This document shows, one piece after another, positions 1 to 16,159 of a stretch of 43,811 bases of DNA. A program made the position numbers and the translations under genes. The DNA is from a virus. Under the pieces are notes generated by a model. That model did no database searches. It was not told the DNA's origin and saw only the letters and a program-made list of their open reading frames with translations. The DNA lies in IMG/VR virus record IMGVR_UViG_3300050033_000050, positions 1-43,811 of that record. One strand, written 5' to 3'. The first letter of the stretch is position 1. Every line of letters starts with the position of its first letter.

Positions 1-57
1 CTGTTATTCCATCCAAATCCGCCACCTCCCACAAAAATAACGCCTCGCTGGGCGGGA

Positions 58-1146
58 TCATTCCTGCTCATCTTTGGGCAGTCGCCTGAATGCCAGCGTC
101 CCCATCAACTTGCGCCGCAGGTTATAACTGTTGCAATGCTTGAGCAGTCCCAGGTAACTCTGGACGCTGGCGTTCACGTCCTCAAATCCAACTTCGCCCC
201 AGGTGTAGGCTCGCTGCAGGTACTTGAGTCTCCGCCGCATCTTCCTTGCCGTGGACTTTCGCAGCTTTTTGTGCGTGCTCCATATCCGGTACCCGACCCA
301 GTCGATCCCCTGGTCTATCGTCCTGATGCAGGACTTGCCATTCAGCGTCAGGCGCAGGCGCTCTGCCAGGAATGTCTGAATCTCCTGCTTGATCTCACGC
401 AGGTAAGCCTTGTCCCGGTGTAGGATCAGGGAGTCATCCATGTAACGCATGTAACGCTTGACATGCAGATCGTGCTTCACGAACTGATCCAGCTCGTTCA
501 GGTATAGGTTGGCGAACATCTGGGACGTCAGGTTGCCAATCGGCATGCCCACTCCCGGAACCCGCACTCCGGTGAACCCGCTGTCGTCCAGGTCCACTCC
601 GAACTTGATATGCTCGCACCTGATGATGGTCTCCAGGAGCCAGAGCAGATCCTTGTCGGCGATCAGGCGCCGCAGGATGCCCACCAGCACGTCGTGATCG
701 ACCCGGTAGAAATACTTGGACACGTCCATCTTCAGCGCGTAAATCCGACCCTGTTTGCTATCCAGGTCTCGCAGCCAATATTGCAACCGGTCAGCCGCTT
801 TGTGCGCTCCGTACCCAACCCGGCAGGCGTAGGTGTCTGAGATATAGCGCCGATCCAGGGGCGGATTCAGCACCCGGTAGATCGCCCACTGGACAACCCT
901 GTCCTTAAACGGCAGCGCCATGATCAGGCGCTTCTTTGGTTCATAAACGAAAAACTCCCGGTAGCTGCCGACCCGGTAGGTCTTCTCTCTCAACTCTTCC
1001 TGGATGGCGACCAGGCTGGCCTCAAGGTTGTGGGTGAACGCCAGCACCTCATTCCGGTATCGCTTGCCCTTCCTGGCCTCTCCGTAGGCTGCAAGCAGGT
1101 TGTCGAAGTCGCATATGGCAGGATAAAGATTCTTGAGCCTCTTCAA
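58..1146 (-). CDS. DGR reverse transcriptase
   Basis: Reverse transcriptase of a diversity-generating retroelement. It copies the template-repeat RNA into cDNA with adenine-specific errors, and the cDNA then replaces the variable repeat. Seen: motif A with MDVSKYF (catalytic Asp about residue 141), the DGR hallmark IGNLTSQ (about 203-209) in place of the QG motif of other RTs, and the YMDD box (about 235-238) with flanking RYM/SLIL, followed by a basic thumb region. The frame stays open upstream to an ATG at 1377, but that extension would translate the template repeat. I place the start at TTG 1146 because AGAGG lies 7 nt upstream and LKRLKNLYPAICDFDNLL resembles the N-terminus of DGR RTs. 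The resulting 362 residues are normal for the family. It is last in the target-avd-TR-RT cassette. Confidence in family is very high, in start moderate. Confidence 0.96.
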   Translation of the reverse strand: MKRLKNLYPAICDFDNLLAAYGEARKGKRYRNEVLAFTHNLEASLVAIQEELREKTYRVGSYREFFVYEPKKRLIMALPFKDRVVQWAIYRVLNPPLDRRYISDTYACRVGYGAHKAADRLQYWLRDLDSKQGRIYALKMDVSKYFYRVDHDVLVGILRRLIADKDLLWLLETIIRCEHIKFGVDLDDSGFTGVRVPGVGMPIGNLTSQMFANLYLNELDQFVKHDLHVKRYMRYMDDSLILHRDKAYLREIKQEIQTFLAERLRLTLNGKSCIRTIDQGIDWVGYRIWSTHKKLRKSTARKMRRRLKYLQRAYTWGEVGFEDVNASVQSYLGLLKHCNSYNLRRKLMGTLAFRRLPKDEQE

Positions 1147-1310
1147 TATGTCGCCTCTTAGAAAATAATGCCGGGCGTGGCACCCTTCACCCTCGGCTAC
1201 TAGCTGCCTTCCCGGCGATTCAGTTTTTTGCCCGCAGGCAGGGAGAATGGCCCCTTTTTCCTGAGCGCTGGACGCCACCCCGTGGGGCAGCGCCTTCTGG
1301 CTGTAGGAGG

Positions 1311-1423
1311 AAGCCGCCCGGAACCCGATGTTGCTATTCGTATTCGTCCGAACATTATTCAGGTTCAGATTGAACACCCCGGCATTCGTGCCGTTGTTCC
1401 AATTGCCACCCCGGATCGGGAGC
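1311..1423 (-). repeat. DGR template repeat (TR)
   Basis: 113-bp template repeat between avd and the RT gene, paired with the variable repeat at 1847-1959 (constant offset of 536). Read in the target frame on the minus strand it holds eleven AAC/AAT codons, the typical DGR design that lets A-mutagenesis reach many amino acids without making stops. Fifteen positions differ from the variable repeat and every one is an A on this strand. Identity ends sharply at both edges. The 164 bp between the TR and the RT start (1147-1310) contain no convincing gene and probably form the structured spacer of the TR RNA, as in BPP-1. Confidence 0.96.
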
Positions 1424-1447
1424 CGCGCTGGCCACTCCCCTAAACTT

Positions 1448-1783
1448 TCAGCGGGTGGTAGTTTTGAACCACCCGCCGATCATCTTGCCGATCTCCGTCA
1501 GATGCTTGGCCCAGTTCTCGTATTTGTTGACCGGCAGAAATCCCAGGTCTTTAGCCAGGCGGACATAATATCTCAGGGTCTCCAGGCTGATGTCGGCGTC
1601 CTGGATGGTGTTCTTTTTGTGGTACCGTTTGTTCGCCCGGACGATCTCTCTGAGCAGGTCAAACATCACCTGCTTGGTCTCTGCCGCCAGCGTGTGCTTC
1701 TCGCTCTTGGGATACTGCTTGATGCAGATGTAGCCGTACTGGATCATGTCGTAGGTCTTCTGGAGCAGCTTTAATTCTTCCAT
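1448..1783 (-). CDS. avd: DGR accessory variability determinant (Avd)
   Basis: Small (111 aa), basic, mostly helical protein between the target gene and the template repeat, the position of avd in the BPP-1 DGR. Family members form a barrel of four-helix bundles (related to 23S rRNA intervening-sequence proteins), bind the RT and the TR RNA, and are required for cDNA synthesis. Seen: helix-forming segments around residues 2-20, 30-55 and 65-82, with clusters of Lys/Arg (RANKRYHKKN) suited to RNA binding, and the ending WAKHLTEIGKMIGGWFK, which fits the usual C-terminal helix. The ATG is preceded by GGAGGCAA, part of which lies in the 3' arm of the DGR hairpin. Identification rests on sequence pattern plus context. 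Confidence 0.9.
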   Translation of the reverse strand: MEELKLLQKTYDMIQYGYICIKQYPKSEKHTLAAETKQVMFDLLREIVRANKRYHKKNTIQDADISLETLRYYVRLAKDLGFLPVNKYENWAKHLTEIGKMIGGWFKTTTR

Positions 1784-1792
1784 TTGCCTCCA

Positions 1793-1810
1793 GGCGGGCT
1801 ATCGCCCGCC
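1793..1810 (-). other. DGR target-site hairpin (IMH-associated)
   Basis: Perfect 7-bp inverted repeat GGCGGGC/GCCCGCC around a 4-nt loop that reads GATA on the minus strand. It begins 36 bp past the 3' end of the variable repeat, after the target stop codon. DGR target sites are known to carry hairpin/cruciform structures downstream of the VR with GC stems of about 7-10 bp and GRNA tetraloops that promote retrohoming; GATA fits GRNA. No T-run follows, so it does not look like a terminator. Confidence 0.85.
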
Positions 1811-1838
1811 CGACAGATTACAGGGATCAGATCCCAGA

Positions 1839-3014
1839 TTAGCAAAAAGCCGCCCGGAACCCGATGTAGCTAGCCGTAGCCGTCCGAACACTATTCAGGT
1901 TCAGAGCGAACACCCCGGCACTCGTGCCGTCGCCCCAACGGCCACCCCGGACCGGGAGCACCTCACCCACGTTGAGCATCCAGAATCCGTCCGCGCCGTG
2001 ACTCGTGTCTATCGGTGCCAAGGCGAGTAGTTTCAGCAGGTTGGGCACCGTCACGCCGCCAGCCACAGCAAGGGTCTCAAATGTGTTGCCGGACACGAAG
2101 TTGCTGGCATTAGCCTGGGTAGACGTGTTAATTCGTGCCGCCCCGCTAGATGCTGGCGCAGCTACAAAATCGTATTTCAGCGTCAGCGCGGTGCCCGGAG
2201 CAACCAGGGTGCCCGCCTGAAGGATCGCCTGCCAGGCCGCGCTGCCGGAACTCTGATCCTTAGACCCGTCGGCAGCGTTGTTGTCCTGCAACACCTGGAT
2301 TTCTCCGGCATTGATCCGCATACCGCCAACCCATTCCCAGACGTCGCCGTTCAGGTCGTAGATCCCGAATGGGGTTCCGTCGTGCGACCAGGCCAGAGGA
2401 CCGGAACCGGTCAGAGTCCTGCCGACGTTCCCAGATTCAAACTCACTGGGAGTAGCTGCTTCTGACGCGATGTTAATGTCGCTGCCGTAGTTGTTGTTGC
2501 CCCGCGGCCAGAAGGGGCCACGTGTCTTGCAGATGAGGGCAATACAAGCCCACTCCGCGTTTGTCATCAGGTGCCAGCCGGTCCCCTTCTGTGTGCAGGC
2601 CAGCCGCGCATTGTCATAGTTAATGCCGTTGCCCGGGTCCTGCATCCGCAGGCTGAAAGCTCTCAGCGTCGTGGTTGCGCCGGTGTAGGCGCACAGGTAC
2701 TTGGCAACGTAGATCACCGGCTTCGTAGCACCGTTGACCGTGAAAGCCGGATGGGGTGCCGTCGCCCCCCCGGAGAGCAACTGCGATTGCATCAGTAAGG
2801 GTACGACAACCATAATAGACGGGTTGCCCTGGTCATCGTACATGACCGTGTTTCTGCCGAAACTGGCCTGCTGGATGGCCTGTCTCCACTGCTCCTGCTC
2901 AGCGGCGACCGTGATCACGCCGTTCCGCAAGAACCGCTCTGTGAGTTGGTTCTCGACGCTGAAAATTGCTTCTGCCAATTGAGCTTGGCTGTATGGTCCT
3001 GGGATGATTTTCAT
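1839..3014 (-). CDS. DGR target protein, C-type lectin/FGE-like fold, predicted receptor-binding tail protein
   Basis: 391-residue protein diversified by the DGR. The C-terminal two thirds look like a formylglycine-generating-enzyme/C-type-lectin domain: GTGWHLMTNAEWACIAL, then LNGDVWEWVGG, then GGRWGDGT and the ending GFRAA, all typical of DGR targets such as Mtd. The variable repeat covers the last about 40 residues; ten residues differ from the template translation (for example Asn to Arg, Gly, Asp, Ser, Ala and Tyr). The N-terminal 100 residues resemble a tail-attachment part. The ATG has GGGAGGT upstream. The gene ends the tail operon, next to fibre and baseplate genes, so it probably binds the host receptor. 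That role is inferred; the target status is directly visible. Confidence 0.93.
   Translation of the reverse strand: MKIIPGPYSQAQLAEAIFSVENQLTERFLRNGVITVAAEQEQWRQAIQQASFGRNTVMYDDQGNPSIMVVVPLLMQSQLLSGGATAPHPAFTVNGATKPVIYVAKYLCAYTGATTTLRAFSLRMQDPGNGINYDNARLACTQKGTGWHLMTNAEWACIALICKTRGPFWPRGNNNYGSDINIASEAATPSEFESGNVGRTLTGSGPLAWSHDGTPFGIYDLNGDVWEWVGGMRINAGEIQVLQDNNAADGSKDQSSGSAAWQAILQAGTLVAPGTALTLKYDFVAAPASSGAARINTSTQANASNFVSGNTFETLAVAGGVTVPNLLKLLALAPIDTSHGADGFWMLNVGEVLPVRGGRWGDGTSAGVFALNLNSVRTATASYIGFRAAFC
1847..1959 (-). repeat. DGR variable repeat (VR)
   Basis: 113-bp copy of the template repeat, inside the target gene and ending 8 bp before its stop codon. It differs from the TR at 15 sites, all template adenines: A to G, C or T in the coding strand. 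Nine of the eleven template Asn codons and one Ile codon are altered. The last 17 bp at the 3' side (bases encoding GFRAA) are GC-rich and identical, as expected for the initiation-of-mutagenic-homing segment; beyond it VR reads TTTGC where TR reads CCTCC. Confidence 0.96.
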
Positions 3015-3015
3015 G

Positions 3016-3231
3016 TCACATACCTCCCATTGGCGGCATTGGCGGCATCACCGGCAGCGGCCATAGATAAGCGTAGTTCCGCCGCAGGTCGCCCTCAAAC
3101 GTCGGCAGGTAATTCAGCGCATCTGCGTCTGTCCCTTTGACGTCGATCTGCCCCTGCAGGTCTATGTCCTCGTCGGCGAAGCTGACGCTGAGCGTCACTG
3201 TCCCCTGGTTGTCAGTCAATTCGTAGGTCAC
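3016..3231 (-). CDS. Small tail-associated protein, unknown function
   Basis: 71 residues, GTG start overlapping the stop of the fibre gene by 4 nt (GTGA), so translation is probably coupled. The N-terminus (TYELTDNQGTVTLSVSFADEDIDLQGQIDVKG) looks like a small beta-rich domain. The C-terminus is Met/Pro/Gly-rich (PVMPPMPPMGGM). The target gene's Shine-Dalgarno lies in its last codons. It sits between fibre and DGR target and may be an adaptor or chaperone for either; nothing in the sequence proves this. Confidence 0.75.
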   Translation of the reverse strand: MTYELTDNQGTVTLSVSFADEDIDLQGQIDVKGTDADALNYLPTFEGDLRRNYAYLWPLPVMPPMPPMGGM

Positions 3232-4058
3232 TCTTCCATCACCGCCATATTAAGACTTGCGCCCTCGCTCACGGCGTAAATTGGGATGTAATTAGCCGGG
3301 TTAAAATCCTGCGACCATGCCGCCCCCGGTTCGACCGGGAAGCCGGTCTGTTGGTTCACGGTTGACGACCCTACCCGCATCCGCAGGGCCTGGTCCTCGT
3401 TCTTGATCGTCAACTGGCAGCGTGTTGTCAGCGCCGATGCTCCGGCGAACACCTCAGCCGGTGTTGCGGTCACGGTCTTGACGCCGGTGACCGGAGCTTG
3501 GGTGATCGGGTTGACCAGACTGATCAAATACGCCAACCTGGCTAGGGTTGACCCGGATGAGTTGGCTGCATCTCCCGTGCTCCCGAGGCCAGGGATGGCA
3601 GTCGTGCCATTCAGGTAGCCCAGAATGGTGCTCGATACGTAGTTTTTTATATCCTTTAGCTTCGCGTTGGCTGAGCCTGTGGCGCTGGCCGCGTCGGCCT
3701 GTGCTCCAATGCCGGGCTGAATCGTACCCGTCTCATAAGCGTAAATGGTGTTGGTCAGGTAGTTGATCAAATACGCCAACCTGGCTAGGGTTGACCCGGA
3801 TGAGTTGGCTGCATCGGCTTCTTGCCCCAGGTCCTGGACCAGGTTGGCCAGCCTCGCCAAGGCGTCCCCGCTTGCGCTCTGCCCGTCGCTGACGAGGCCC
3901 AGTGCTGCGGCCAGGGCTGTCAACTGGGACGTGGTACTCCCGTATATCGTGTGCAGCGTAGTGTCCAGGGTGTCCATGTTCCCATTGAGAACGCCGATGT
4001 CGGCAGTGTCGGTCAGGTCCGGCTTAACCAGGCCGTAGTTCGAAGTTGGTGTTGACAT
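3228..4058 (-). CDS. Tail fibre-like protein
   Basis: 276 residues. The opening NYGLVKPDLTDTADIGVLNGNMDTLD is the kind of baseplate-proximal head seen in many Bacillota phage fibres. The middle is a low-complexity, Ala/Ser/Thr-rich region with repeated units containing DAANSSGSTLARLAYLI (twice nearly exactly) and related copies (ADAASATGSANAKLKDI), suggesting a fibrous trimer. The C-terminal about 80 residues (from TQAPVTGVKTVTATPAEVF) look like a beta-sandwich tip. The ATG has a strong AAGGAGG 7 nt upstream. It lies directly after XkdU and two genes before the DGR target, so it may carry the target protein. Confidence 0.85.
   Translation of the reverse strand: MSTPTSNYGLVKPDLTDTADIGVLNGNMDTLDTTLHTIYGSTTSQLTALAAALGLVSDGQSASGDALARLANLVQDLGQEADAANSSGSTLARLAYLINYLTNTIYAYETGTIQPGIGAQADAASATGSANAKLKDIKNYVSSTILGYLNGTTAIPGLGSTGDAANSSGSTLARLAYLISLVNPITQAPVTGVKTVTATPAEVFAGASALTTRCQLTIKNEDQALRMRVGSSTVNQQTGFPVEPGAAWSQDFNPANYIPIYAVSEGASLNMAVMEE
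3521..3572. repeat. 52-bp direct repeat, copy 1, in the fibre gene
   Basis: Identical to 3764-3815 (243-bp spacing, in frame). Encodes the fibre motif ending ...GSTLARLAYLI. Exact DNA identity, beyond the protein repeat, suggests recent duplication or gene conversion. Confidence 0.9.
3764..3815. repeat. 52-bp direct repeat, copy 2, in the fibre gene
   Basis: Second copy of the 52-bp exact repeat at 3521-3572. Unequal recombination between the copies would delete or add 81 codons without changing frame, altering fibre length. Confidence 0.9.
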
Positions 4059-4070
4059 GGTTGCGCCTCC

Positions 4071-4628
4071 TTAAATTGCCCTAGTCTTCAGGGCACCCCA
4101 GGTGCTGGTCTTTACCCCAGCCCAGGTTAAAGCCTCGACGTTGCCCCAGGTGGTATAAGTAAATGCGTAATTCACCGCCAAATGCGCTGGCTTGATCTGC
4201 TCGATCACTGCCTGTAGGTCGGCCAGGTTCGGCGGTATTCCCAGCGGGTCGACGAACGTCACTATGAAGGAATATGTCTCCGGGTGGTTGGCGACGCTCG
4301 CTGAGCCGTCCACGTAAGCCTCGGCCACATTTTGGATCATGGTGATGGTCACGGTGCCGATGCCCCGGAGCTTCGATTTGATAACTGATCGGCGCTGGTC
4401 GTCCGGCTTCCCGGCCATGGTCGTGATTCCCAGCGTGCTTTCCCAGATGCTCAATCCCCAGGTGGCCGTGTCCACAAAAAACTGGTTCAGGACGTCGTTC
4501 AGAGCGGCCTTGAGGCTGTCGAACTCCATCCCGTCCGCCTGCATGGCCGCCTGCATCACGATCGACGTGGCGTAGTACGGCGGAATGTAGCCCATCATCT
4601 CCTGCCCTTTGGGGCTGGTCACGCTCAT
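4071..4628 (-). CDS. Baseplate/tail protein, XkdU/YmfQ (DUF2313)-like
   Basis: 185 residues from the ATG (MSVTSPKG) that overlaps the stop of the baseplate J gene by 4 nt (ATGA). The frame is open further upstream, but that part is a shadow of the J gene. Features of the Mu gp48/XkdU family: an N-terminal helical part with MGYIPPYYATSIVMQAAMQADGMEF, a central FVDTATWGLSIWESTLGI segment, then a ferredoxin-like C-terminal part ending with IEQIKPAHLAVNYAFTY. The family contributes to baseplate wedge assembly next to the J protein. Family assignment is from pattern and gene order. Confidence 0.88.
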   Translation of the reverse strand: MSVTSPKGQEMMGYIPPYYATSIVMQAAMQADGMEFDSLKAALNDVLNQFFVDTATWGLSIWESTLGITTMAGKPDDQRRSVIKSKLRGIGTVTITMIQNVAEAYVDGSASVANHPETYSFIVTFVDPLGIPPNLADLQAVIEQIKPAHLAVNYAFTYTTWGNVEALTWAGVKTSTWGALKTRAI

Positions 4629-5773
4629 GAGAATGTCACCGTCCCCGGCACGGCCGCTTGCCCAAGGGCGATGGCAATGTTGGCCGTCCCCCCGTTGGCC
4701 AGCAGGTTGGCGTAGTCCGTCACCCCGGCCTGGTTGAGTAGCTGGGAGCCGATCTGCGCCCATTTAATGGAGACGTTCTGGGTCGGCGGATTGTTTGTCG
4801 GGTCGGTCACAAATGCCTGCCCGGCCAGGTAACTGGTCAGGGCGGCCACGAAGGCCGTTTTGATGTCTGCCTCGGCCACCGTGCCGTCCATGGTCAGACT
4901 GGCCGTCACGTTGATGGGTACCGCTGTGGCAGCCGTCACTGTCACTGCCGCCCCGATCGGGGCCTCGCCGTCTCCGGTGGGCAGGCCCCCCGGGCAGATT
5001 GCCTCCTGGGCTGCAGCCACGATGACGACGCTGGCCGGTAGGTTGTCCGCCCCGAGCAGCACCACCTTGACCGTGCCGTTCCCGTTCCAGAGCGGGATCA
5101 CCTGGGCGTCTCCCACGCCAGGGATTGCCATGGCCCATTGTTTGTAGTCCGCCCTGTTCCCGCTCGTGCCCGGATTCTGGACCTTGGCCAGGTATCTTGC
5201 CAGTAGGGCGGTGTCGCTCTCCTCGTCCGTGCCATCTCCGTTCATGGCGGTGTTGGATATCGAGGCGACGCCCGGTATCGGGACCGACAGTACGGTGATC
5301 GTCCCGAGCGCCACGTTCCCGGCTGCCCCGGCCACCACGGCGGTGATCGGCACGGTTATGCTGCCGCCTGCCGGGATGGTCACAGTAGCGTCGGTGGTGA
5401 ACTCGACCGAGGCCGTGCTGGTGGCGTTGTCCGCCGGTGTGCAGACCACCGTCTCGGTGGCGATGGGCGTTCCTGCGGTGCCCGTGATGGTCAGTGTTTC
5501 GGTGGCGCAGACAGCCGCTTTCCTCGGGGTCAGGCCGACCTCACCACATCGCAGATCCAGGTAGGCTCCGTAGGTGGTCTCGGCGAATCCGTACTTGAGC
5601 ACCTGCTGCGCCCAGATCGCTGCTGTCGCCAGTTCGATGGAGGCCGGGGTGACAACGTCCCAGACAAATGATCCCTCTGTCGTGTCCACCCCGGCAGGGA
5701 CGTTCCCCAGCATACGCTGAAGGATGACGTCCTGGGTCTGGTCCGCCAGGTATTCCGGTAGTGCGTCGCTCAT
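4625..5773 (-). CDS. Baseplate J-like protein (XkdT / Mu gp47 family)
   Basis: 382-residue baseplate wedge protein, equivalent to P2 J, Mu gp47 and XkdT. Typical features: N-terminal SFVWDVVTPASIELA segment, LRCGEVGLTPRKAA, Gly/Thr-rich beta domain at about 95-165, then DEESDTALLARYLAKVQNPGTSGNRADYKQWAMAIPGV (a strong family signature), and a C-terminal domain with WAQIGSQLLNQAGVTDYANL. It overlaps XkdS upstream and XkdU downstream by 4 nt each, so the three are translationally coupled. Confidence 0.95.
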   Translation of the reverse strand: MSDALPEYLADQTQDVILQRMLGNVPAGVDTTEGSFVWDVVTPASIELATAAIWAQQVLKYGFAETTYGAYLDLRCGEVGLTPRKAAVCATETLTITGTAGTPIATETVVCTPADNATSTASVEFTTDATVTIPAGGSITVPITAVVAGAAGNVALGTITVLSVPIPGVASISNTAMNGDGTDEESDTALLARYLAKVQNPGTSGNRADYKQWAMAIPGVGDAQVIPLWNGNGTVKVVLLGADNLPASVVIVAAAQEAICPGGLPTGDGEAPIGAAVTVTAATAVPINVTASLTMDGTVAEADIKTAFVAALTSYLAGQAFVTDPTNNPPTQNVSIKWAQIGSQLLNQAGVTDYANLLANGGTANIAIALGQAAVPGTVTFS

Positions 5774-6228
5774 GACATTGTCACCTCGCTTAAAATGGTC
5801 GCAGTCTCTGCCTTGACGCTCGTGATCTGGCAGGTGAAATAACAGGTAGCGCCGTCCCAGGCGAACGCGAAGGCGTCGACCTTGGCCGTCCTGGGGTCGA
5901 CCATCAGGGTCTCCGTCACAATCCGCTGGATCTCGCTTTCGTTGGCCGCCCTTGTCAGGTTCCTGCGGATCAGGTCGTCAAAATCCTGCCCGTAGATCCG
6001 GCTGTAGACAGGGTATTTGTACCTCAAGGTCAGGAGCGCCTTAAGACCCCAATCTGTCCAGGCCTGGACGCCCTGTGTGGGCACGCCCTGCCCGGTCGCC
6101 GTGGTCACGAAGTCGCCTGCCGTAAAATCAAAATTCCAGCTTGTCCCGAAGTTCACCCGGGAGGCTGGAGTCACTGTCGTCTCCGGCGTGGCCGCCGGTA
6201 CGTCTGTCGGGTAGATATTAACCATCAT
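5770..6228 (-). CDS. Baseplate protein, XkdS (DUF2634)/gp25-like
   Basis: 152 residues. Resembles XkdS/DUF2634 proteins, which share the gp25-type baseplate wedge fold: central VQAWTDWGLKALLTLRYKYPVYSRIYGQDFDDLI followed by ANESEIQRIVTETLMVDPRTAKVDAFAF, which is the conserved part. The start overlaps the end of the XkdR gene by 11 nt and the stop overlaps the J gene. Acts at the baseplate-sheath junction in related phages. Confidence 0.9.
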   Translation of the reverse strand: MMVNIYPTDVPAATPETTVTPASRVNFGTSWNFDFTAGDFVTTATGQGVPTQGVQAWTDWGLKALLTLRYKYPVYSRIYGQDFDDLIRRNLTRAANESEIQRIVTETLMVDPRTAKVDAFAFAWDGATCYFTCQITSVKAETATILSEVTMS

Positions 6229-6628
6229 TTGCCACCACCTTGCAGAGTACTACGACGCTCAGTCCGTTGTTGACAGGTATGCAAAGCACCCGGTCTCCGG
6301 CCTTGAGGTCAGGTTTAATCTCGACGTGTACCTGGTCAATCGTTGCCGGGCCGAACGCCCAGGCTGCTGCTCCGGTTACTTGGCCGCCCTTCGAGTCCAG
6401 GAGGCCGCTCTGGCTGCCGCCCATGGCGAAGGCCGGTATGTCCAGTTTGGCCTGCCAATCGGCCACCAGGTAACTGCTGATCTCGTGCTTGAAGGTGTCC
6501 AGTTGCACGCCCCCGGCTGCCGTGATGGTGCCCAGTTCGGCCGGGATGCCCTTCAGGTTCTTGTCGACGTGCTTCTTGATGTGCCCGGTCACTGATTCGG
6601 CCAGATCCTTATACGGATTGGTTACCAT
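6218..6628 (-). CDS. Baseplate protein, XkdR (DUF2577)-like
   Basis: 136 residues from ATG 6628 (MVTNPYKDLAESVTGHIKK). An upstream in-frame ATG at 6652 has no ribosome site, while GGAGG lies 13 nt before 6628. Family features: the N-terminal amphipathic helix, PAELGTITAAGGVQLDTF, and the C-terminal LKAGDRVLCIPVNNGLSVVVLCKV, an OB-like beta segment found in DUF2577 proteins. It overlaps the hub gene by 20 nt. The family sits between hub (XkdQ) and gp25-like (XkdS) in PBSX-type clusters, exactly as here. Confidence 0.87.
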   Translation of the reverse strand: MVTNPYKDLAESVTGHIKKHVDKNLKGIPAELGTITAAGGVQLDTFKHEISSYLVADWQAKLDIPAFAMGGSQSGLLDSKGGQVTGAAAWAFGPATIDQVHVEIKPDLKAGDRVLCIPVNNGLSVVVLCKVVANDG

Positions 6629-7619
6629 TAGTATAATATTTCCTCCGCACATAGTCCGACGTCGCCATTTGCACGGTCATATGGCCTGGTGATCCCAGCG
6701 TGTGGGAGACGTCCGTCGCTATCAGGTTCATGCCGTTCAGCACGACAGCGTCCCCTGCCCGCATGATGTTGATGTCCGGGCTGGTCACCGTGAAGGTCTC
6801 CAGAAGGCCGGTCAGCAGGGCGGTCGCTGCCGCCTTGGCCTCCGCCGTGGTGGTGATCTTGCTGTTCTGGACGAGCTTCTGGAGCGTGCCAAGTTGCGCC
6901 GTCTGGGCGCTGGCAATGGCCAGGACGGGCGTCTTCGTCCCAGAGGTCTCCTTGCCTAAAACCTTGACCTGGGTGATCGCTCCTTCGAGCGTCCGTAACT
7001 GGTCGATCCCCTCGACGTTCTCCAGCACCCAGACCGTGGTGTTGCTGCCGATCACGAACAGTCGCAGGCCGTTCTCCGTGATTCGGGGACGGTACATGGT
7101 GCCCCCCTTCATGCTCGTCTCCTGGATGTCCGAGAGGAGCATGCTGTAAACCGTCCCCCGGTGCGAGGCTCCGGTGCCGGTCGGGGCCAGGAGCACCCCC
7201 GTGCCCGGTATGGTGTCCAGAGGGATGCCCCAATCCGAGGCGTACTGCTTCAGGCGCTGGTCGGCCGTCTGCCCGGCTGGGAACAGGTACTCGTCCTCTG
7301 TTTTCTCCAGGTAGATGGTCTTGTCGTAGACGGTCGCCGTCAGGTGTTTGACGCCCTTGTTCTGGCTGTTAATCTCCCAGACCACGCCCGGGTGCAGCAG
7401 GTAGACCATGGTCGTGCCGCCCAGCGGCACGCCGCTCACTCTGAATGCCTGGCCGTTGGCGATACCCGGGAAGTCGTCGGTGACCACCATCTTGATCTCA
7501 GCCTTGTAGGCGATGTTGCTCAATGAGTCCGTCAGTATGGCGCTCTCGACGATGTTTTTTAGGTAATACTGGTTATTGAGGATAAACTCGTAGTCCTGCT
7601 CGCCAAATGTCACGGCCAT
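6609..7619 (-). CDS. Baseplate hub protein, XkdQ/YqbQ-like
   Basis: 336 residues, related to XkdQ and distantly to P2 gpD/T4 gp27 hub proteins. Seen: N-terminal YYLKNIVESAILTDSLSNIAYKAEIKM, then GQAFRVSGVPLGG and VVWEINSQNKGVKHLTATVYDKTIYLEKTEDEYLF, the segment most conserved in XkdQ; then RLKQYASDWGIP. Near the C-terminus PDINIMRAGDAVVLNG matches the end of the hub domain. ATG shares one base with the stop of the XkdP gene (TGATG). Forms the central tail hub with the LysM protein before it. Confidence 0.9.
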   Translation of the reverse strand: MAVTFGEQDYEFILNNQYYLKNIVESAILTDSLSNIAYKAEIKMVVTDDFPGIANGQAFRVSGVPLGGTTMVYLLHPGVVWEINSQNKGVKHLTATVYDKTIYLEKTEDEYLFPAGQTADQRLKQYASDWGIPLDTIPGTGVLLAPTGTGASHRGTVYSMLLSDIQETSMKGGTMYRPRITENGLRLFVIGSNTTVWVLENVEGIDQLRTLEGAITQVKVLGKETSGTKTPVLAIASAQTAQLGTLQKLVQNSKITTTAEAKAAATALLTGLLETFTVTSPDINIMRAGDAVVLNGMNLIATDVSHTLGSPGHMTVQMATSDYVRRKYYTNGNQSV

Positions 7620-8269
7620 CAGGGCATCACCAGAGCCATTCCCGGTTTAATCAGGTTCGGGTTGGGGCCGATGGTGCTTTGGTTGGCCGTGTAAATGGCC
7701 TGCCACTTCGAGCCGTCTCCGAGACACATCTTGGCGATAATAAAGAGGCTGTCCCCGGACTTGACCGTGTAGGTCTTGGGGACAGGCTTTGTGTCCGGCC
7801 GGGTCTGGAGCGCCGAGACATTGACGGCCGCTGCCGCCTGCACCTGCGCCTGGGTCCGGACGGTAATCGGGTTCCACGTCCGTAGCGTCAGGTCGTAGTA
7901 AACGTCGCCCGGTTCGCCGCCCTGGAAGGTGCTTGTGTGAGCGTCAACCAGCACCAGGGTGTTGACGACGGTGGTGGTGATGATCAGCCGGACCGGCTTC
8001 TTGCTCACCGTCCAGGTGGTCAGTTGCTGCATCGCCTGCTGCGGGTCCGGGATGCTGGCGTACTGGCAATATTCGCTGTCGTAGGCGATCGGCAGAAAGC
8101 TGCTGAGGCTGATCTCCGTGACCTTGGTGCCGATCGTGAAGTCCGCCTCTCCCATGTTGAGGATCGTGACCGTGTCCAGCAGCTTCTCCCGCTTGATGAC
8201 GATCTTGTCGGGGTTGACCGGCAGTTGGAAGGTCACGCCTGCCGTGTCGTCAACCAGGTAGATGTCCAT
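7619..8269 (-). CDS. LysM-domain baseplate protein, XkdP-like
   Basis: 216 residues from ATG 8269 (MDIYLVDDTAGVTFQLPVNP); the longer open frame reads through the terminator at 8291-8315. The N-terminal about 150 residues are the XkdP part (FQLPVNPDKIVIKREKLLDTVTILNMGEADF, LSSFLPIAYDSEYCQY). A LysM domain follows (KTYTVKSGDSLFIIAKMCLGDGSKWQAIYTAN...LIKPGMALVMP), which binds peptidoglycan or stabilises the hub. A terminator just before the start implies its own promoter or antitermination. Confidence 0.92.
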   Translation of the reverse strand: MDIYLVDDTAGVTFQLPVNPDKIVIKREKLLDTVTILNMGEADFTIGTKVTEISLSSFLPIAYDSEYCQYASIPDPQQAMQQLTTWTVSKKPVRLIITTTVVNTLVLVDAHTSTFQGGEPGDVYYDLTLRTWNPITVRTQAQVQAAAAVNVSALQTRPDTKPVPKTYTVKSGDSLFIIAKMCLGDGSKWQAIYTANQSTIGPNPNLIKPGMALVMP

Positions 8270-8290
8270 GCCCTCACCCCGCTCTCTGGG

Positions 8291-8315
8291 CAAAAAAATA
8301 ACCCCTTTCGGGGTT
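8291..8315 (-). terminator. Intrinsic terminator inside the tail operon
   Basis: On the minus strand: AACCCC, GAAA loop, GGGGTT, then A and seven T. A textbook rho-independent terminator in the 70 bp between the small membrane protein gene and the XkdP gene. Confidence 0.85.
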
Positions 8316-8339
8316 GTAACTGCGCTTGTGTTTAGTTGC

Positions 8340-8600
8340 TTACTTGCCGCCGATGCCGATCTTGATCTGGCCGCCGTTCCTTCGCTTCTCCCACCAGACC
8401 ATAGTTCCAAGCGCTGCGGCCAGGACGGCTGCGACGATCACAATGGACAGACCGTTCTGGGCAAACCAGCTCCATACCCCTTGCAGGACGCTCGCCGCCA
8501 CGCTGATCACCATAATCCACAGGAACGCCTTGGCGCTCCACTTGAAAACCTTAATGCCGAAGATCCCCAAAATTACCCCGATTGCAATGATCACTATCAT
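8340..8600 (-). CDS. Small membrane protein in the tail operon, unknown
   Basis: 86 residues with three hydrophobic stretches (about 1-19, 24-46 and 48-70) and a basic tail with WEKRRNGG. Good ribosome site (GGAGGCGAGGAC then ATG). No motif identifies a function. Small size and membrane segments would fit a holin or an envelope-acting protein, but it lies between tape measure and LysM protein rather than beside an endolysin, and a terminator follows directly. Could instead be an assembly or superinfection-exclusion factor. Confidence 0.75.
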   Translation of the reverse strand: MIVIIAIGVILGIFGIKVFKWSAKAFLWIMVISVAASVLQGVWSWFAQNGLSIVIVAAVLAAALGTMVWWEKRRNGGQIKIGIGGK

Positions 8601-8629
8601 GTCCTCGCCTCCTGCCCCACAGTATGGGA

Positions 8630-11170
8630 CTAGGCTGCGAGATTAGCAATGGCCTCCCGGAACTTTTGGGCGGTGATCGTTGCCACTTGCTCCGCCATCT
8701 CGTCCAGGTCGCCGGTGCCGTTGACCTGCGCCTGCAGAGCGCCGTCCATGTAGATGTTGATTACGTGGCCGCTGCTGCCGTTGCCCCCCCCCAACCCCAG
8801 CCGTTGTCCGGCCTGCTGGAAGAGCGAGAACGAGTTGCTACTCCGGGAGAGCGGGATGATTGCCTCTGGCCCCGCTTCGGCCACCAGCCCCAGGTGTGGC
8901 GTGCTGAAGATGCCGCCCGTGGCGTGTTTTTTGGGTGTCGGTGCCACTGCTGTGACTCCGGCCTGGTAGCCTGATTCCGTCCCGCCGATGATTCCTTCGG
9001 CCTGACCTACCACCCACTGACCTGCCGCACCAAGGGTGCCCTTTGCTTTGTCAAATCCGGCGACAAGGCCGCCGACCATTGATTTCCCGAAGCCCTCAAA
9101 GGCCAGCACAACCTGCCCGATTGCCGAGGCGATCCTGTTAGGGATGGTCAGTATCCAGGTGGCAATCTCTCCTGGTAAGGCGGCCACCCAAGCGACGGCC
9201 CTGTTCTTGGCGTTCTGAAACCAGGTATCAAAGTCTGCTGCGATCTGGGTTAGCCAATTGACGGCCACGTTCTTGGTCTGCTCCAACCACGATCCGGCTT
9301 CGCCCGCGAGCGCGGCGATGGCAGCCACGGCCTTGTTCTTGGCTTGCGTGAACCAGGAGGCAAACTCGCCCGGCAGATCTCTGAGTTTGGTAACGCTTTG
9401 TCTAACAATGTAGCCGATCTGCTCCGGCAGGGTGCTCATCTCGGTGCCGATCAGCTTCCCTGGCAGGCTCTTTAACGATGCCTTGGCCTGGTCGAGCGGC
9501 GAAACGACCGCTGGCCCACTGTACGCGCCAGATGTCGGCAGGTGCCCGGTCTTTGCCTTATAGGTGTTCTGGTATTGCTGCTTGTCGTATTGGTCGGAAG
9601 ACAGGCCTCCGTGCTGCAGCTTGAAGACCTCTTGGCTGGCCCATGATCCTGCCGTCTGGGCTGGTTTCCCGACGTTGGTGTAGCGGATGATGGCGTATGC
9701 CAGCGCCGCTGCTGCCGGCCCCCAGACGAACGGGTTGGCCAGAACGGCGACGAAGGCCATCCCCATGGATGTCCCCGCTACCGCCTCGGTTCCCACTACC
9801 GCCTCGGTTCCCGCTACCGCTTCTGGTGCCGCTGCCTCTGCTGCCGGGGCGATCATCCCCTTGGCCGCGTTAATCGCGGCCACGATGAGCTTGACGAGCA
9901 TGCCTCCGCCCAGCATGTAGAACAGCCCTCCGGTCACCACCGTCCCGCCGATGTTGCCGTGGAGCAGATCCTTGAAGGCGTCTCCGACGGTCAGCACCAG
10001 CGCCTTGCCCCACGCCTTTATGGCGATCTCCGCCAGTTGGGTGAATAGGGATATTATCCTGCTGCCTCCCGGGCCGCTGACCCAGGCGTTCAGGGCGTCC
10101 AGGGCGTCGTCGGCGATCATGGTTAACTTGCCGCCTAGTGAGGCGTTCTGGAATGCCGGGTTGTTGGTAAGTTGGTTGACGAAGTTAAAGAAAGCGGTCG
10201 CCGCCTGGTCTAGCCCCTTCGCTGCGGTCTTGCCGACGCCCTCGAAGAAAGCCTGGATCTGCGGTTCGTACTGCTTGATGAAACTTACGATTTTCCCCAT
10301 AATCTTTAATAATTCCGGGGCGATGGCGTTCACAAACGGTAAGAAGGCGTCGGCAAAGCCGTACCCCAGTTGCTGGGTCTGCATCTGGAGCGCCTTCATG
10401 TTTTGGGTCAATTCGTGCGCCTGGATGGGGTCGATCCCGATGGCCTGCACCTTGCTGGCGATCTTGGCGTTCTCCGTGTAGTCCTTGAGCAGCGGGATCA
10501 TCTGCTGCCCCCTCATCCCTAGCACCTGGGCGACGAAATCCTGATCCTTGCCCGCTGCCGTCGCTGCAGCGTATCCCTTAGCCAGGTTGGCCAGTTGGTC
10601 GTTGTAGGACAATGTCTTGCCGCTGGCGTCCTTCAGTGCCACCCCGAACTGCGCCAGCCCCTTGGTGGTAGCGTTACCGCTTTTCCCGGCGGTGTCCACG
10701 GCCTTGTCCAGCCGGATCATGGTGCTGGTGAACAGCGTACTGCTTGTCCCCGACAGCGTCAGTACTTTGTTCATGTCCGCCGCTTGCTGTGTGGACATGT
10801 GCATTTTGGCGGCCATCTCGTAGAGCGAATTCCCGTAATCGGCCGCGCCCTTGGTCAAGGCAAACAGCCCGAAGGCGGACGCTGCGACGCCGATGATGGC
10901 CATGGGGTTGCTCAGCAAGCCGAAGACGCTGCTCGCCTTGCTCTTGAGGTTGTCCAGGCCGCTGCCGATCTTCTTGAGCGGCGCGCTGATCTTGTCCTGG
11001 ATGGTGACGGCCGGGTTGACCTTGATTTTGTTCAGGGTGTTCATCTGCTTCTCGGCGTTGCCGGTGAACTTCTCGACCGTTGCCCCTGCCTTGGCCATGC
11101 CCTCGTCCACGCCCGAGGTGTTTGCCCCGATGGTAATTATTACATTTTTGCCTTCCTCGTTCTCTGCCAC
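8630..11170 (-). CDS. Tail tape measure protein
   Basis: 846 residues, the longest gene here; sets tail length and is likely ejected with the DNA. Starts at GTG 11170 behind GGGAGGTGAT. The N-terminal 120 residues are helical/coiled (VDEGMAKAGATVEKFTGNAEKQMNTLNKI), followed by PMAIIGVAASAFGLFALTKGA and the conserved MSTQQAADMNKVLTLSG...YNDQLANLA region seen in Xkd/P2-type tape measures. A hydrophobic Ala/Gly-rich central part (about 390-510) includes an 18-bp repeat. Later come about 20-residue Trp-containing repeats (WFTQAKNKAVAAIAAL, WLEQTKNVAVNWLTQI, WFQNAKNRAVAWVAAL), typical of tape measures. It ends with HATGGIFSTPHLGLVAEAGPEAIIPLS, a common C-terminal signature. Confidence 0.95.
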   Translation of the reverse strand: MAENEEGKNVIITIGANTSGVDEGMAKAGATVEKFTGNAEKQMNTLNKIKVNPAVTIQDKISAPLKKIGSGLDNLKSKASSVFGLLSNPMAIIGVAASAFGLFALTKGAADYGNSLYEMAAKMHMSTQQAADMNKVLTLSGTSSTLFTSTMIRLDKAVDTAGKSGNATTKGLAQFGVALKDASGKTLSYNDQLANLAKGYAAATAAGKDQDFVAQVLGMRGQQMIPLLKDYTENAKIASKVQAIGIDPIQAHELTQNMKALQMQTQQLGYGFADAFLPFVNAIAPELLKIMGKIVSFIKQYEPQIQAFFEGVGKTAAKGLDQAATAFFNFVNQLTNNPAFQNASLGGKLTMIADDALDALNAWVSGPGGSRIISLFTQLAEIAIKAWGKALVLTVGDAFKDLLHGNIGGTVVTGGLFYMLGGGMLVKLIVAAINAAKGMIAPAAEAAAPEAVAGTEAVVGTEAVAGTSMGMAFVAVLANPFVWGPAAAALAYAIIRYTNVGKPAQTAGSWASQEVFKLQHGGLSSDQYDKQQYQNTYKAKTGHLPTSGAYSGPAVVSPLDQAKASLKSLPGKLIGTEMSTLPEQIGYIVRQSVTKLRDLPGEFASWFTQAKNKAVAAIAALAGEAGSWLEQTKNVAVNWLTQIAADFDTWFQNAKNRAVAWVAALPGEIATWILTIPNRIASAIGQVVLAFEGFGKSMVGGLVAGFDKAKGTLGAAGQWVVGQAEGIIGGTESGYQAGVTAVAPTPKKHATGGIFSTPHLGLVAEAGPEAIIPLSRSSNSFSLFQQAGQRLGLGGGNGSSGHVINIYMDGALQAQVNGTGDLDEMAEQVATITAQKFREAIANLAA
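9777..9830. repeat. 18-bp tandem repeat within the tape measure gene
   Basis: Two near-perfect 18-bp units plus a diverged third; encodes the repeated (E/T)AVAGT / EAVVGT stretch in the hydrophobic middle of the tape measure protein. In-frame expansion or loss would change tape length. Confidence 0.75.
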
Positions 11171-11177
11171 CTTCGCA

Positions 11178-11752
11178 TCACCTCCCGCCCTTATTGCCCT
11201 TTTTCTCCCGCTCGATCTCGACCTCAGCGCAGCACATCAGGAACTGCTGCTCGCCCCGGGAGAGATTGAAATATTGGCTGGGGAGCAGGTGGTGCTGGCT
11301 CCAAAGGTTAAACAGCACCGTTGCCAGCCCCCCGGCCTTGATCAGTTTTTTGTGTCGTCGAGGTCGATGTTGTAGCCTGAAAGGTCAAGCACTATGTCGC
11401 CCAGTGCCGACATTTCTCCGGCCAGCAGTGCCCGCTTGATGACCTCTTCGGGTCCGCTGGCCTTGAACTTGCCGGTCAGTGCCGGTGCGCCCCAGTTCGG
11501 CCTTTTGGTGGCCGCCGAAATCAGCCCGACGTTGAAGTCCTCGGTGTCGATCCGGTCAGCTCCCGTCTTCTTGTTGTGAATGGTGCAGCGTTCCTGGATC
11601 TGGAACACCTGCTTGCCGGTCAGCCCCATGAGCGTGACCGGGATCTTCAGCCGTTCGAGCACCACTGTCTTCTCTGGGATGATGTCAGCGTCCAGAAGAC
11701 GCCGCAGCACCTCCTCTTCGGACAGTCCCTCGATCTTCTCTTTACTTGCCAT
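11178..11752 (-). CDS. Tail assembly chaperone, -1 frameshift fusion (gpGT-like)
   Basis: Predicted long form made by -1 ribosomal frameshifting at 11345-11351. After N136 the ribosome would re-enter the -1 frame and add 55 residues (LIKAGGLATVLFNLWSQHHL...) up to the TGA at 11178-11180, giving 191 aa. The extension is open throughout, has a protein-like composition and ends 7 nt before the tape measure start, exactly as lambda gpG/gpGT and many other tail chaperone pairs. No independent start for the extension is visible. Fusion inferred from sequence, not demonstrated. Confidence 0.85.
11342..11752 (-). CDS. Tail assembly chaperone, XkdN-like (short form)
   Basis: 136 residues. XkdN-family features: acidic N-terminus with EKIEGLSEEEVLRRLLDADIIPEKTVVLERLKIPVTLMGLTGKQVFQIQERCT, and ISAATKRPNW. 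Binds the tape measure protein during tail polymerisation. Lies between tail tube and tape measure, the fixed position for this protein. The gene ends ACA AAA AAC TGA, so the stop directly follows the slippery heptamer. Confidence 0.9.
   Translation of the reverse strand: MASKEKIEGLSEEEVLRRLLDADIIPEKTVVLERLKIPVTLMGLTGKQVFQIQERCTIHNKKTGADRIDTEDFNVGLISAATKRPNWGAPALTGKFKASGPEEVIKRALLAGEMSALGDIVLDLSGYNIDLDDTKN
11345..11351 (-). promoter_or_regulatory. -1 ribosomal frameshift slippery site A AAA AAC
   Basis: Heptamer A_AAA_AAC in the zero frame of the tail chaperone gene, followed at once by TGA. It fits X XXY YYZ and allows both tRNAs to re-pair in the -1 frame. GC-rich sequence follows and could fold as a stimulator. 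Confidence 0.88.
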
Positions 11753-11770
11753 TGCCCCCCACTCCCCTCT

Positions 11771-12181
11771 TTACGATGCGACGATCGGGTCTAAAAGCTC
11801 GTACCCGCTAAACGTGAACGCTACCGATTCGGCGACCTCGTTCCCCGCCTCCCAGTTCGCCAGTTGGATCTTGTCAAACATCACGTTTTTCAGCCGGATG
11901 GTCTCGGAGCCGTAACTCTCCGGGTCAGCCAGTGTGGAGAGGATCTCCAACTTGGCGAAGCCGTTGGCGATCATGCCGCTGGTGACGTGGAACCCGGACA
12001 GCGTGCCGGTGCCCTTGAGCGCCCCCCGCTTGTGCCGGGTCCAGTTGTCCCCCGATAGGAGCAGTTCCTTCTTGACCTGCTCGACCTCGGCGACCAGCTT
12101 ATTGAAGTTGGTCTGCCAGATTCCGTTGATGTACGCCTGGCCGTAGGTGCCCAGGATTACTCTGGATTCGTCCAATGCCAA
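11771..12181 (-). CDS. Tail tube protein, XkdM-like
   Basis: 136 residues, right size for XkdM (DUF2001) tube proteins. Signature: GTYGQAYINGIWQTNFNKLVAEVEQVKKELLLSG, HKRGALKGTGTLSGFHV and the ending ESVAFTFSGYELLDPI. Forms the inner tube through which DNA passes. Sits between sheath and tail chaperone as expected. Confidence 0.95.
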   Translation of the reverse strand: MALDESRVILGTYGQAYINGIWQTNFNKLVAEVEQVKKELLLSGDNWTRHKRGALKGTGTLSGFHVTSGMIANGFAKLEILSTLADPESYGSETIRLKNVMFDKIQLANWEAGNEVAESVAFTFSGYELLDPIVAS

Positions 12182-12194
12182 TTAGTCCACCTCC

Positions 12195-13631
12195 TTATCC
12201 GTTGATGCATCCGGTGCCAAAGATGCGCTCCATGCTGTCCACAATCGTCGCCGTGTACGTCCAGAAGAACTGGTCGCTCTCTGCCGTCTTCATGGCATCG
12301 GCATCCGTCTGTACCGTGAAGTCGGCGTCCAGCAAATCCGGGGCCAGCGTCTCAAAATACTGCTTGATAGCGCACAGGAGCGCCGTCTGCCCGATGGTGT
12401 TGTTCAGGATTTTCCCGACGTAGCTGCTCTGGGCGGCCTTGGCGGTGTCGGTGGCGATTGCATCCATGATCCTGATGCACTTGATCTTCCGCCATACCTT
12501 GCCCTGGGTCTCCGAGAACGTGGTCAGGGTGTCGATGCCCTGCTCGACGATGACGTGCTCTCCGTCATAGGTCAGCACCAGGGTGCCTGCGTTCAGGGCG
12601 GCGATGACCTGGTCGTTCGTCAGTCTGGGTGTCACATCCTGGAACGCGGTCACAGCGTAGGTCAGGCTTTCGCTCAGTGCCTGCCCCGAAGTCAGCCCGG
12701 CGATGTAACAGGCCACCATGGCGCTCGGGTAGGTCACGCCGTCCAGGATGCCGCTCACGCCGACGTTGATCACTCCTTCGACGTTAAAGCCCAGACTCTG
12801 GGCGTTGGCTGCGGTAATCTCCTGGTCGGCCACGGCCGTGCCGCCCATGTAGGTCGTGACCATCTTGCCGTTTCTCCGTATGCGGGCGATCCAGGCGGCC
12901 ACAGATGTCTGCAGCGCCGGGTCGGTTGCCCCGTCCAAGGTAAAGGCGTTGATGGTCTGCGCCTCAAAGGCCGACATGGCGGCGGTGTAGTCGGTGTTGG
13001 TGATCCCGGCCAGACCGTCGTTGCCTCCGGTGAGGGCTACATTGCTGACCGCTGCCAGGGTGCCGTTGCCCGGTGCCGGGCTGGTGGCATTGATGTAGGT
13101 GTTGTTGGCGTTGGCGGCGATCGCTGCCACGGCGTTGGCGGCAATGCCCGCCCCCTTGGCAAAGGTGATGACCACCAGTTGCGCCGTTCCCTCGAACAGC
13201 ACAATGTCCGTCATGGTTGCCGGACTGACCGGGTTGTCTCTCACGGTCACGTTGAAGGCTCTGGTGGATTCGTACTTGGTAGTTAATGTCAGGGCGTTGG
13301 CGACAGCGCTGTCCTTCAGGGTCACGCTGCCCTTGGCAGCGCTGGCATCGGCCATCCGGTAGGCGAGCACCGTCTGGGGCTGTCCCAAGAGCGCCAGGTA
13401 GATGCTGTCGTGGGCGGTGTAGGGTGCCGAAGCCTCGCCGTAGTAATTATCCAGGTCGGTCTCGCTGGTGATCTGCACCATCGTCTCGATCGGCCCCCAG
13501 TTGGCCTTGACCGGGATGGCGACGATGCCCCGCGCTCCGGGCGTAATTGCCGCCAGGGCGGCTGCCACGAAGTTCATGTAAAAGCCGGGCCTGACCGGCA
13601 GGTCTGTTTTCGACCAGTTTCCTGATGCCAC
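12195..13631 (-). CDS. Contractile tail sheath protein, XkdK-like
   Basis: 478 residues. N-terminal RPGFYMNFVAAALAAITPGARGIVAIPVKANWGP is the conserved start of PBSX/XkdK-type sheath proteins. Insertion domain with many Ala/Thr (about 100-240), then GVINVGVSGILDGVTYPSAMVACYIAGLTSGQALSESLTYAV and the C-terminal handshake part with QGIDTLTTFSETQGKVWRKIKCIRIMDAIATD and GKILNNTIGQTALLCAIKQYFETL. Presence of a sheath makes this a myovirus. Strong assignment. Confidence 0.96.
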   Translation of the reverse strand: MASGNWSKTDLPVRPGFYMNFVAAALAAITPGARGIVAIPVKANWGPIETMVQITSETDLDNYYGEASAPYTAHDSIYLALLGQPQTVLAYRMADASAAKGSVTLKDSAVANALTLTTKYESTRAFNVTVRDNPVSPATMTDIVLFEGTAQLVVITFAKGAGIAANAVAAIAANANNTYINATSPAPGNGTLAAVSNVALTGGNDGLAGITNTDYTAAMSAFEAQTINAFTLDGATDPALQTSVAAWIARIRRNGKMVTTYMGGTAVADQEITAANAQSLGFNVEGVINVGVSGILDGVTYPSAMVACYIAGLTSGQALSESLTYAVTAFQDVTPRLTNDQVIAALNAGTLVLTYDGEHVIVEQGIDTLTTFSETQGKVWRKIKCIRIMDAIATDTAKAAQSSYVGKILNNTIGQTALLCAIKQYFETLAPDLLDADFTVQTDADAMKTAESDQFFWTYTATIVDSMERIFGTGCING

Positions 13632-13889
13632 TTAACTCACCTTCCTTTCTAAGAAATCCTTGATCGCTGCCCGGACATCGTCGGTGGACAGTTCGCTTTT
13701 TGTGTTGCCGTAGAGCGCCCCGATCACGATCTCCGGGTACACTCCGAATATCTCCCTCGCCCTGGCTACCAGTTCTGCCCTCGGATAGAGGGTGGGCTGG
13801 ACCTGGTCCTGGGCGATCTGCTTCTTTTCTGCCCTCGGGTAGGGGGCGGACTGGACCTGGTCCCCGGTGATCTGCTCCTCTTCCATCAT
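13632..13889 (-). CDS. Small protein, YqzN/YkzM-like C-terminal domain
   Basis: 85 residues. The N-terminal half holds a repeated unit (DQVQSAPYPRAEK, DQVQPTLYPRAEL). The C-terminal half (LVARAREIFGVYPEIVIGALYGNTK...STDDVRAAIKDFLERKV) resembles the short YqzN/YkzM domain found just upstream of sheath genes in Bacillota phages. The start overlaps the previous gene by 4 nt (ATGA). Function unknown; possibly a tail terminator helper. Confidence 0.8.
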   Translation of the reverse strand: MMEEEQITGDQVQSAPYPRAEKKQIAQDQVQPTLYPRAELVARAREIFGVYPEIVIGALYGNTKSELSTDDVRAAIKDFLERKVS

Positions 13890-14725
13890 GTCTTTATCTC
13901 CTCCTTGGTCAGCGTTACGGTGTCCATCAGCGTGCCTGTTAGCGCGCCTGCGATCGGCGGCCGCAGTGTCACCCGTTGCAGGGTGACGGTTGCCTTACTG
14001 AGCAGGTTGCTCTGGCCGTCGGCGCTGGCCGCCGGTGTGATAACGGTCAGCCAGGTGTTGCTCGTGGGGTCCAGCGGGATCTTGATGGCACAGGCCAGCC
14101 CGGTGATCAGGGTTGCCGCTGCCTGGGCGTGCTCGTTGGGTGTCCGCCCAAGTAAGAAGCCGGTGAGTTTCTTCTGCAGCAGATAGCTGCTCCCGCCCCG
14201 CTCCTTGGTCTGGGTGCCGGTCAGCATCCAGGTAACTGATGGCCGCTTGAATCCCCGCCAGCCGCTGTAAATCATCCAACCGGGTAGTGCTGCGGTTGTC
14301 CAGTTCGCCAGGGCGGTCAGCCAATCGTCCGCCTGGGCGTTCCCGGCCAGATTGACGACCACTGCCCGGAAGAAAAACAGGTAGCGCCCTAGCTCGTCTC
14401 TGGCTGTAATGGACGGAATATCCTGCAGTTGCGCTATGTACTGGTTCTCTCCGACAGCGAACGTGCCGTCTGGGGTCGTCGGGTAGAGAATGCTGCTCAG
14501 TGCCGCCCAGATGTTGGCGTATCCTGTCGCATGGTCCGGGCTGCGGACCTGGACGTAAAGCTCCCGCCATGATTCAGGCGGCTCCTCTGGCGATGGCCCG
14601 CCTGCGTCAAACACTGTTATGCAGGCTGCTGGGTTTTCCGGCTGGTACTCGTAGAAGATGTCGGTGCCGACGGTGCCCATGCCCTGTGTTGCCAGGTAGG
14701 TGGTAATGTCCTCGCTGATTGGCAT
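13886..14725 (-). CDS. Tail terminator/minor capsid-type protein with C-terminal extension
   Basis: 279 residues. The first about 130 resemble minor-capsid-3/tail-completion proteins (DITTYLATQGMGTVGTDIFYEYQPENP, ELYVQVRSPDHATGYANIWAALSSILYP, LGRYLFFFRAVVVN). The rest (about 140-279), with WMIYSGWRGFKRPSVTWMLTGTQTKERGGSSYLLQKKLTGFLLG, looks like a second domain, perhaps an XkdJ-type piece fused to it. Sits between a gp10-like protein and the sheath cluster, where tail-terminator genes lie. The two-domain reading is inference. Confidence 0.75.
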   Translation of the reverse strand: MPISEDITTYLATQGMGTVGTDIFYEYQPENPAACITVFDAGGPSPEEPPESWRELYVQVRSPDHATGYANIWAALSSILYPTTPDGTFAVGENQYIAQLQDIPSITARDELGRYLFFFRAVVVNLAGNAQADDWLTALANWTTAALPGWMIYSGWRGFKRPSVTWMLTGTQTKERGGSSYLLQKKLTGFLLGRTPNEHAQAAATLITGLACAIKIPLDPTSNTWLTVITPAASADGQSNLLSKATVTLQRVTLRPPIAGALTGTLMDTVTLTKEEIKT

Positions 14726-14728
14726 GGT

Positions 14729-16157: not shown

Positions 16158-16159
16158 GG

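Follow-up and report, generated by a model that had tools for sequence, protein, structure and literature searches.

The window, i.e., the whole stretch of DNA analyzed here, comprises 43,811 bases and constitutes one IMG/VR virus record. At its left end, the minus strand carries the cassette of a diversity-generating retroelement (DGR), in which the target gene is followed by avd, the template repeat (TR) and the reverse transcriptase (RT) gene, and the variable repeat (VR) forms the 3' end of the target gene (Table 1). The neighbouring genes are those of a contractile-tail phage and include sheath, baseplate and tape measure genes, while an ADP-ribosylglycohydrolase-like protein and a DNA methyltransferase are encoded at 39352-40359 and 29947-31233, respectively. 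A 52-base exact direct repeat (3521-3572 and 3764-3815, 243 bases apart) is present in one gene of the tail region. No named phage close in DNA to window positions 1-18000 was found.

Table 1. Features of the cassette in the window.
Feature	Position	Strand	Remarks
Reverse transcriptase (RT), 362 aa	58..1146	-	Pfam RVT_1; PHROG 1423 (7e-152); profile match to RT structures including 8UB7
Structured spacer RNA, Rfam RF02921 RT-14 RNA	1171..1313	-	61.6 bits against a gathering score of 48.1; begins at the TR end
TR	1311..1423	-	28 A; 11 AAY codons in the target frame (7 AAT, 4 AAC); no change in either sister contig (L002, L003)
avd, accessory variability determinant, 111 aa	1448..1783	-	Pfam bAvd (2.6e-36); PHROG 'Avd protein of DGR' (2.6e-41)
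Hairpin/cruciform	1793..1810		Minus strand GGCGGGC-GATA-GCCCGCC; begins 36 nt past the VR; loop agrees with GRNA
Target gene, 391 aa, FGE-type C-type-lectin variable protein, TaqVP family	1839..3014	-	Pfam FGE-sulfatase; 5VF4
VR	1847..1959	-	3' end of target gene; 15 changes, every one at a TR adenine
IMH-like segment	1847..1864	-	A-free, G+C-rich 3' end common to TR and VR; assigned by sequence

The RT gene adjoins the TR and is of the DGR type, its product carrying the motifs YMDD (residues 235-238) and IGNLTSQ (residues 203-209), taken as those of a DGR-type RT. Its translation probably starts at the TTG codon at 1146, as judged by comparison with relatives. The closest bacterial relatives of this RT are those of Desulfovirgula thermocuniculi and Desulfoscipio geothermicus (L227 and L228; 72 and 70%), which hint at a related Firmicutes host. 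Among solved structures, the variable protein of the Thermus aquaticus DGR (PDB 5VF4; 6.8e-65) is the nearest to the target by sequence, and an AlphaFold2 model of the target (pLDDT 94.2) matches the same structure in Foldseek (E 1e-44, TM 0.85, 39% identity). The product of the gene that ends in the VR has a C-type-lectin fold, as judged by sequence match and model.

An earlier note on this DNA had aligned the TR and VR and claimed that all of their differences fall on template adenines. Its coordinates, direction and counts were reproduced, with minus-strand TR 1423 to 1311 and VR 1959 to 1847 aligning over 113 ungapped columns, of which 98 are identical and 15 different, and with a sharp edge of homology at either side. 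The differences affect 15 of the 28 adenines and none of the 85 other TR positions, the chance of all 15 falling on A being p = 2.1e-11, and comprise ten changes from A to G, four from A to C and one from A to T. Ten codons are altered in the VR, i.e., nine of the eleven AAY codons of the TR and one ATC; all ten alterations change the amino acid, while no stop is created. The pair is also the longest direct repeat within window positions 1-6000 (120 nt, 85%, 536 bases apart), and the VR, which matches all 85 non-A positions of the TR, is the single one in the window. A second VR was considered and rejected, the next best site in the whole window matching merely 42 of these 85 positions. The fingerprint of adenine mutagenesis proposed in the earlier note is thus supported both by the substitutions and by the presence of the parts of a DGR cassette around them.

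The A-free end of the pair is labelled 'IMH-like' in Table 1, a term that we adopt from the DGR literature. For phage DGRs, hairpins with loops obeying a GRNA rule have been reported 4-34 bp after the VR (PMC3240598), and the hairpin of the window is consistent with this loop rule, whereas its distance of 36 nt lies just outside that range. Of 106 loci belonging to the lineage, 70 have a hairpin (stem of 7 bp or more) in the 90 nt that follow the VR, compared to 26 of 2,120 shuffled sequences, and the loops in these loci are mostly GATA, GAAA or similar.

Between TR and RT lies the RT-14 RNA, while Phage_DGR RNA (Rfam RF03022) returned no match in the window with its covariance model. The Rfam covariance search covered the window, 45 loci and two genomes. 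Of 22 relatives examined, 18 contained RT-14 at or above its gathering score (4/7 and 14/15), and so did both genomes. The gathering score was also reached by Phage_DGR RNA in 13/13 BPP-1-type loci and RT-3 in 6/6 Bacteroides p00-type loci, while in the Lagaffe/VP58.5-type loci L224, L225, L307 and L310 none of the three families did so (0/4). Where coordinates were compared, each of these RNAs was situated between TR and RT, so that the three families occupy the same position while being split among separate RT lineages. By this position and this linkage to RT lineage, RT-14 and RT-3 appear to be spacer RNAs of DGRs. The predicted spacer fold, from 40 of 92 deduplicated spacers hand-picked for similar length, contains 31 pairs in seven helices, 26 of which pairs are changed on both sides; 254 compensatory cells were observed versus 75.5 expected from shuffles, and 93.7% of cells are paired versus 41-52% in slid controls, counts that favour well-aligned members and are to be read with caution, the fold having been derived from the same alignment. 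The stretch from TR to RT is unusually long in L040 (327 bases), L063 (431 bases) and L079 (759 bases), perhaps due to insertions. The spacer RNA of BPP-1 primes or shapes cDNA synthesis, and by analogy RT-14 and RT-3 may do the same. Rfam lists both as 'RT-n RNA', a name that gives no function, and no publication tying either to DGRs was found; Rfam's own notes and subscription papers were outside the scope of this search, and the link may therefore already be in print.

Two contigs from other metagenomes, L002 and L003, contain the same phage region as the window. Between L002 and the window, 20 of 5,919 bases differ, 19 of which fall within the 113 positions of the VR and one among the other 5,806 bases (VR enrichment p = 4e-32), while L003 differs at one base over 5,927 and is 100% identical over another 11.9 kb. 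The TR is identical in all three contigs, to which number this pattern of an invariant TR and a diversifying VR is limited. The backbone base at 5792 is shared by L002 and L003 and differs in the window, whereas the VR is shared by L003 and the window, indicating that the VR changes independently of the backbone. A search with the exact TR stretch returned just these two sister contigs, and since the three may come from related samples, the independent VR rewriting events seen directly are few. The earlier note had stated from the TR/VR pair that the element has been active, and had suggested comparing VRs of related phages while checking that the TR stays constant; that comparison now takes the claim beyond inference, the VR being rewritten in L002 in an otherwise near-identical phage.

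Against its TR, the L002 VR exhibits 14 differences, 13 at A and one from G to A (window position 1946), the latter being a VR change at a template G and outside adenine mutagenesis. Differences at non-A template positions had been named in the earlier note as evidence against its reading; they are absent from the window (0/85) and occur this once in L002. Such rare changes do not refute the mechanism, as a survey of RT relatives illustrates. Among 81 entries (80 viral RT relatives and the window), a TR/VR pair was found in 71, of which 64 were retained for site counts following removal of four gapped pairs and three duplicates; in these unique pairs 790 of 1,490 A sites are changed, compared to 21 of 5,603 non-A sites. 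Few loci were recovered when BalMu-1-type and Lagaffe RTs were used as starting points for broader scans of viral sequences (12 and 8, respectively).

With a probability of about 97%, as read from natural sequences, the cassette is a functional DGR that belongs to the TaqVP lineage and is carried by a phage. That TR and VR might instead represent an old duplication that has undergone ordinary mutational drift, with the adenine pattern due to chance or composition, would fit two repeats lying so close together, but is practically negligible given that all 15 changes fall on A, that an RT gene and avd are adjacent and that the 64 related pairs show the same preference, and is refuted by the sister contigs, in which 19 of the 20 differences between near-identical phages lie in the VR. 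That the DGR was recently active and is now inactive in the window phage is very unlikely, although somewhat less so: the window and L003 have one and the same VR despite a differing backbone base, and three contigs only were found for this population, yet the RT gene retains its frame and motifs, avd, the RNA and the hairpin are likewise intact, and L002 bears a rewritten VR in an almost identical phage. Likewise very unlikely is a TR-RT fusion protein encoded by the frame that runs open from TR into RT (1377-58, minus strand) and through which tblastn alignments also run in relatives. This frame is open in just 8 of the 71 loci with a TR, a stop separates TR and RT in L009, and base pairing explains the conserved stretch; the fusion was accordingly rejected, the open frame in the window being probably incidental.

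For an active DGR of this type, a mechanism may be proposed by analogy to BPP-1, in which a transcript of the TR and the structured spacer would be bound by RT and Avd, a cDNA of the TR would be made with errors opposite template A, and this cDNA would replace the VR, with the A-free 3' end and the hairpin beyond the VR serving as guides. As the TR stays unchanged, the cycle could repeat. The rewritten codons correspond to the C-terminal variable region of TaqVP, which forms its putative binding face, and the likely use of VR rewriting is to alter what the phage binds.

The errors themselves were compared at the second A of AAY codons, where AAC and AAT encode the same residue and serve as a natural control for the error spectrum. 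Only ungapped and unique pairs of length at least 70 with at least 80% of changes at A were used, i.e., 60 of 81 viral entries, 55 of 80 genome loci and 47 of 128 BPP-1 entries, the last including the same contigs fetched twice with differing flanks; the window pair was counted once, as L003, and L002 was left out (13 of 17 changes at A in the raw alignment with flanks). In the lineage of the window, changes to C account, among all changed second adenines, for 30/80 in AAT versus 27/202 in AAC in the viral set (p = 1e-5), for 15/41 versus 31/220 in the genome set (p = 0.001) and for 45/121 versus 58/422 in both sets pooled (OR 3.86 stratified by TR column, p = 6e-8), and the effect is also observed within single TRs (OR 2.69, p = 3e-4). 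When pairs were instead assigned to the nearest of five reference RTs, the window group yielded 49/144 versus 51/379 (p = 4e-7).

In the BPP-1 lineage the direction is opposite, with 1/20 for AAT versus 62/254 for AAC (Fisher p = 0.053) and, by nearest reference, 2/29 versus 63/261 (Fisher p = 0.035), both based on few AAT codons; stratified tests on BPP-1 alone were not significant (p = 0.13 by column, p = 0.18 within TR). No clear effect was found for the VP585 group (6/52 versus 15/174) or the Lagaffe group (2/9 versus 27/128), and the hankyphage-type group shows 0/6 versus 2/20. Heterogeneity over the window, VP585 and BPP-1 groups is supported at p = 0.0016. Bootstrapping by TR cluster gave a log OR difference of 1.5 to 4.2 between window and BPP-1, which separates these lineages, while the interval of -0.05 to 3.1 against VP585 represents only a marginal separation. 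At the first A of AAY, the Bacteroides p00-type loci (L226, L315-L341) change to T in 38/51 and to G in only 3, based on eight pairs in three TR clusters.

In a literature search that did not extend to the reportedly large GenBank survey of DGRs (Wu 2018), one study was found that treats the neighbour context of DGR errors (PMC12875486). In that 2026 report, the BPP-1 RT in E. coli misincorporates G, giving A to C in the VR, at a rate of 26.8% if the A stands before C and of 2.5% if it stands before T, and slippage on the preceding C is proposed (PMC12875486). Natural pairs of the BPP-1 lineage agree in direction with this laboratory map, while those of the window lineage are opposite (PMC12875486). 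A first-A shift between AAC and AAT, published for BPP-1, is not observed in the window lineage (T 36% versus 39%).

These statistics from natural TR/VR pairs suggest that the window-lineage RT may select the wrong nucleotide according to the 3' template neighbour, and in a manner opposite to the BPP-1 lineage. On balance, a reading is slightly favoured in which DGR RTs have evolved lineage-specific error signatures of this kind, with G placed opposite A mainly before U in the TaqVP lineage and mainly before C in the BPP-1 lineage. The VRs counted have already passed through protein selection and are not a measurement of the enzyme, and a difference that stems from such selection, from host nucleotide pools or from codon position rather than from the polymerase is an unlikely but serious competitor, as AT-rich hosts may carry more AAT. 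It is opposed by the synonymy of AAT and AAC, which removes amino-acid selection, though not all confounders, by the persistence of the effect within TR columns and within single TRs, and by its appearance in the viral and genome sets separately. Were the polymerase-based reading correct, the amino acids sampled at a site would be set by the synonymous choice between AAT and AAC in the TR, the template-slippage model of BPP-1 would not be general, and templates for targeted protein diversification would have to be designed with the RT lineage in mind. Natural AAC and AAT codons provide an inherent control when error spectra of polymerases are compared, and these spectra are apparently lineage-dependent.

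The DGR itself is an ordinary element of a known kind with canonical parts, although its documentation by natural sister phages is unusually clean; what the analysis adds is the tie of RT-14 and RT-3 to DGRs, together with evidence for error signatures that are specific to a lineage. Bacteroides phage p00, of the hankyphage type, shares the order of TR, spacer RNA and RT with the window, while its spacer is RT-3 and the first A of its AAY codons changes mostly to T (38/51, eight pairs only). Vibrio phages VHML and VP58.5 and Faecalibacterium phage FP_Lagaffe are related in RT (40-44% identity) and, along most of its length, in target (34-42%), yet differ in that no DGR-type Rfam RNA reached its gathering score in the four loci of this type and in that no clear AAT/AAC effect was found. 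BPP-1 (NC_005357) has the same gene order and strand as the window and likewise exhibits adenine mutagenesis, a GRNA-loop hairpin after the VR and a structured RNA between TR and RT (PMC3240598, PMC12875486). Its RT type is nevertheless distant from that of the window (36.6% for BIP-1), its spacer belongs to Phage_DGR rather than RT-14, its hairpin follows the VR at 4 nt instead of 36 nt and its lineage has the opposite context bias at the second A. The Thermus aquaticus prophage DGR (TaqVP, 5VF4) has a host different from that of the window phage and was compared by target, gene order and template; it resembles the window in the family and the fold of its target, which is 39% identical, in the succession of target, avd and TR, in its C-terminal VR and in its AAY-rich template (PMC6328139).
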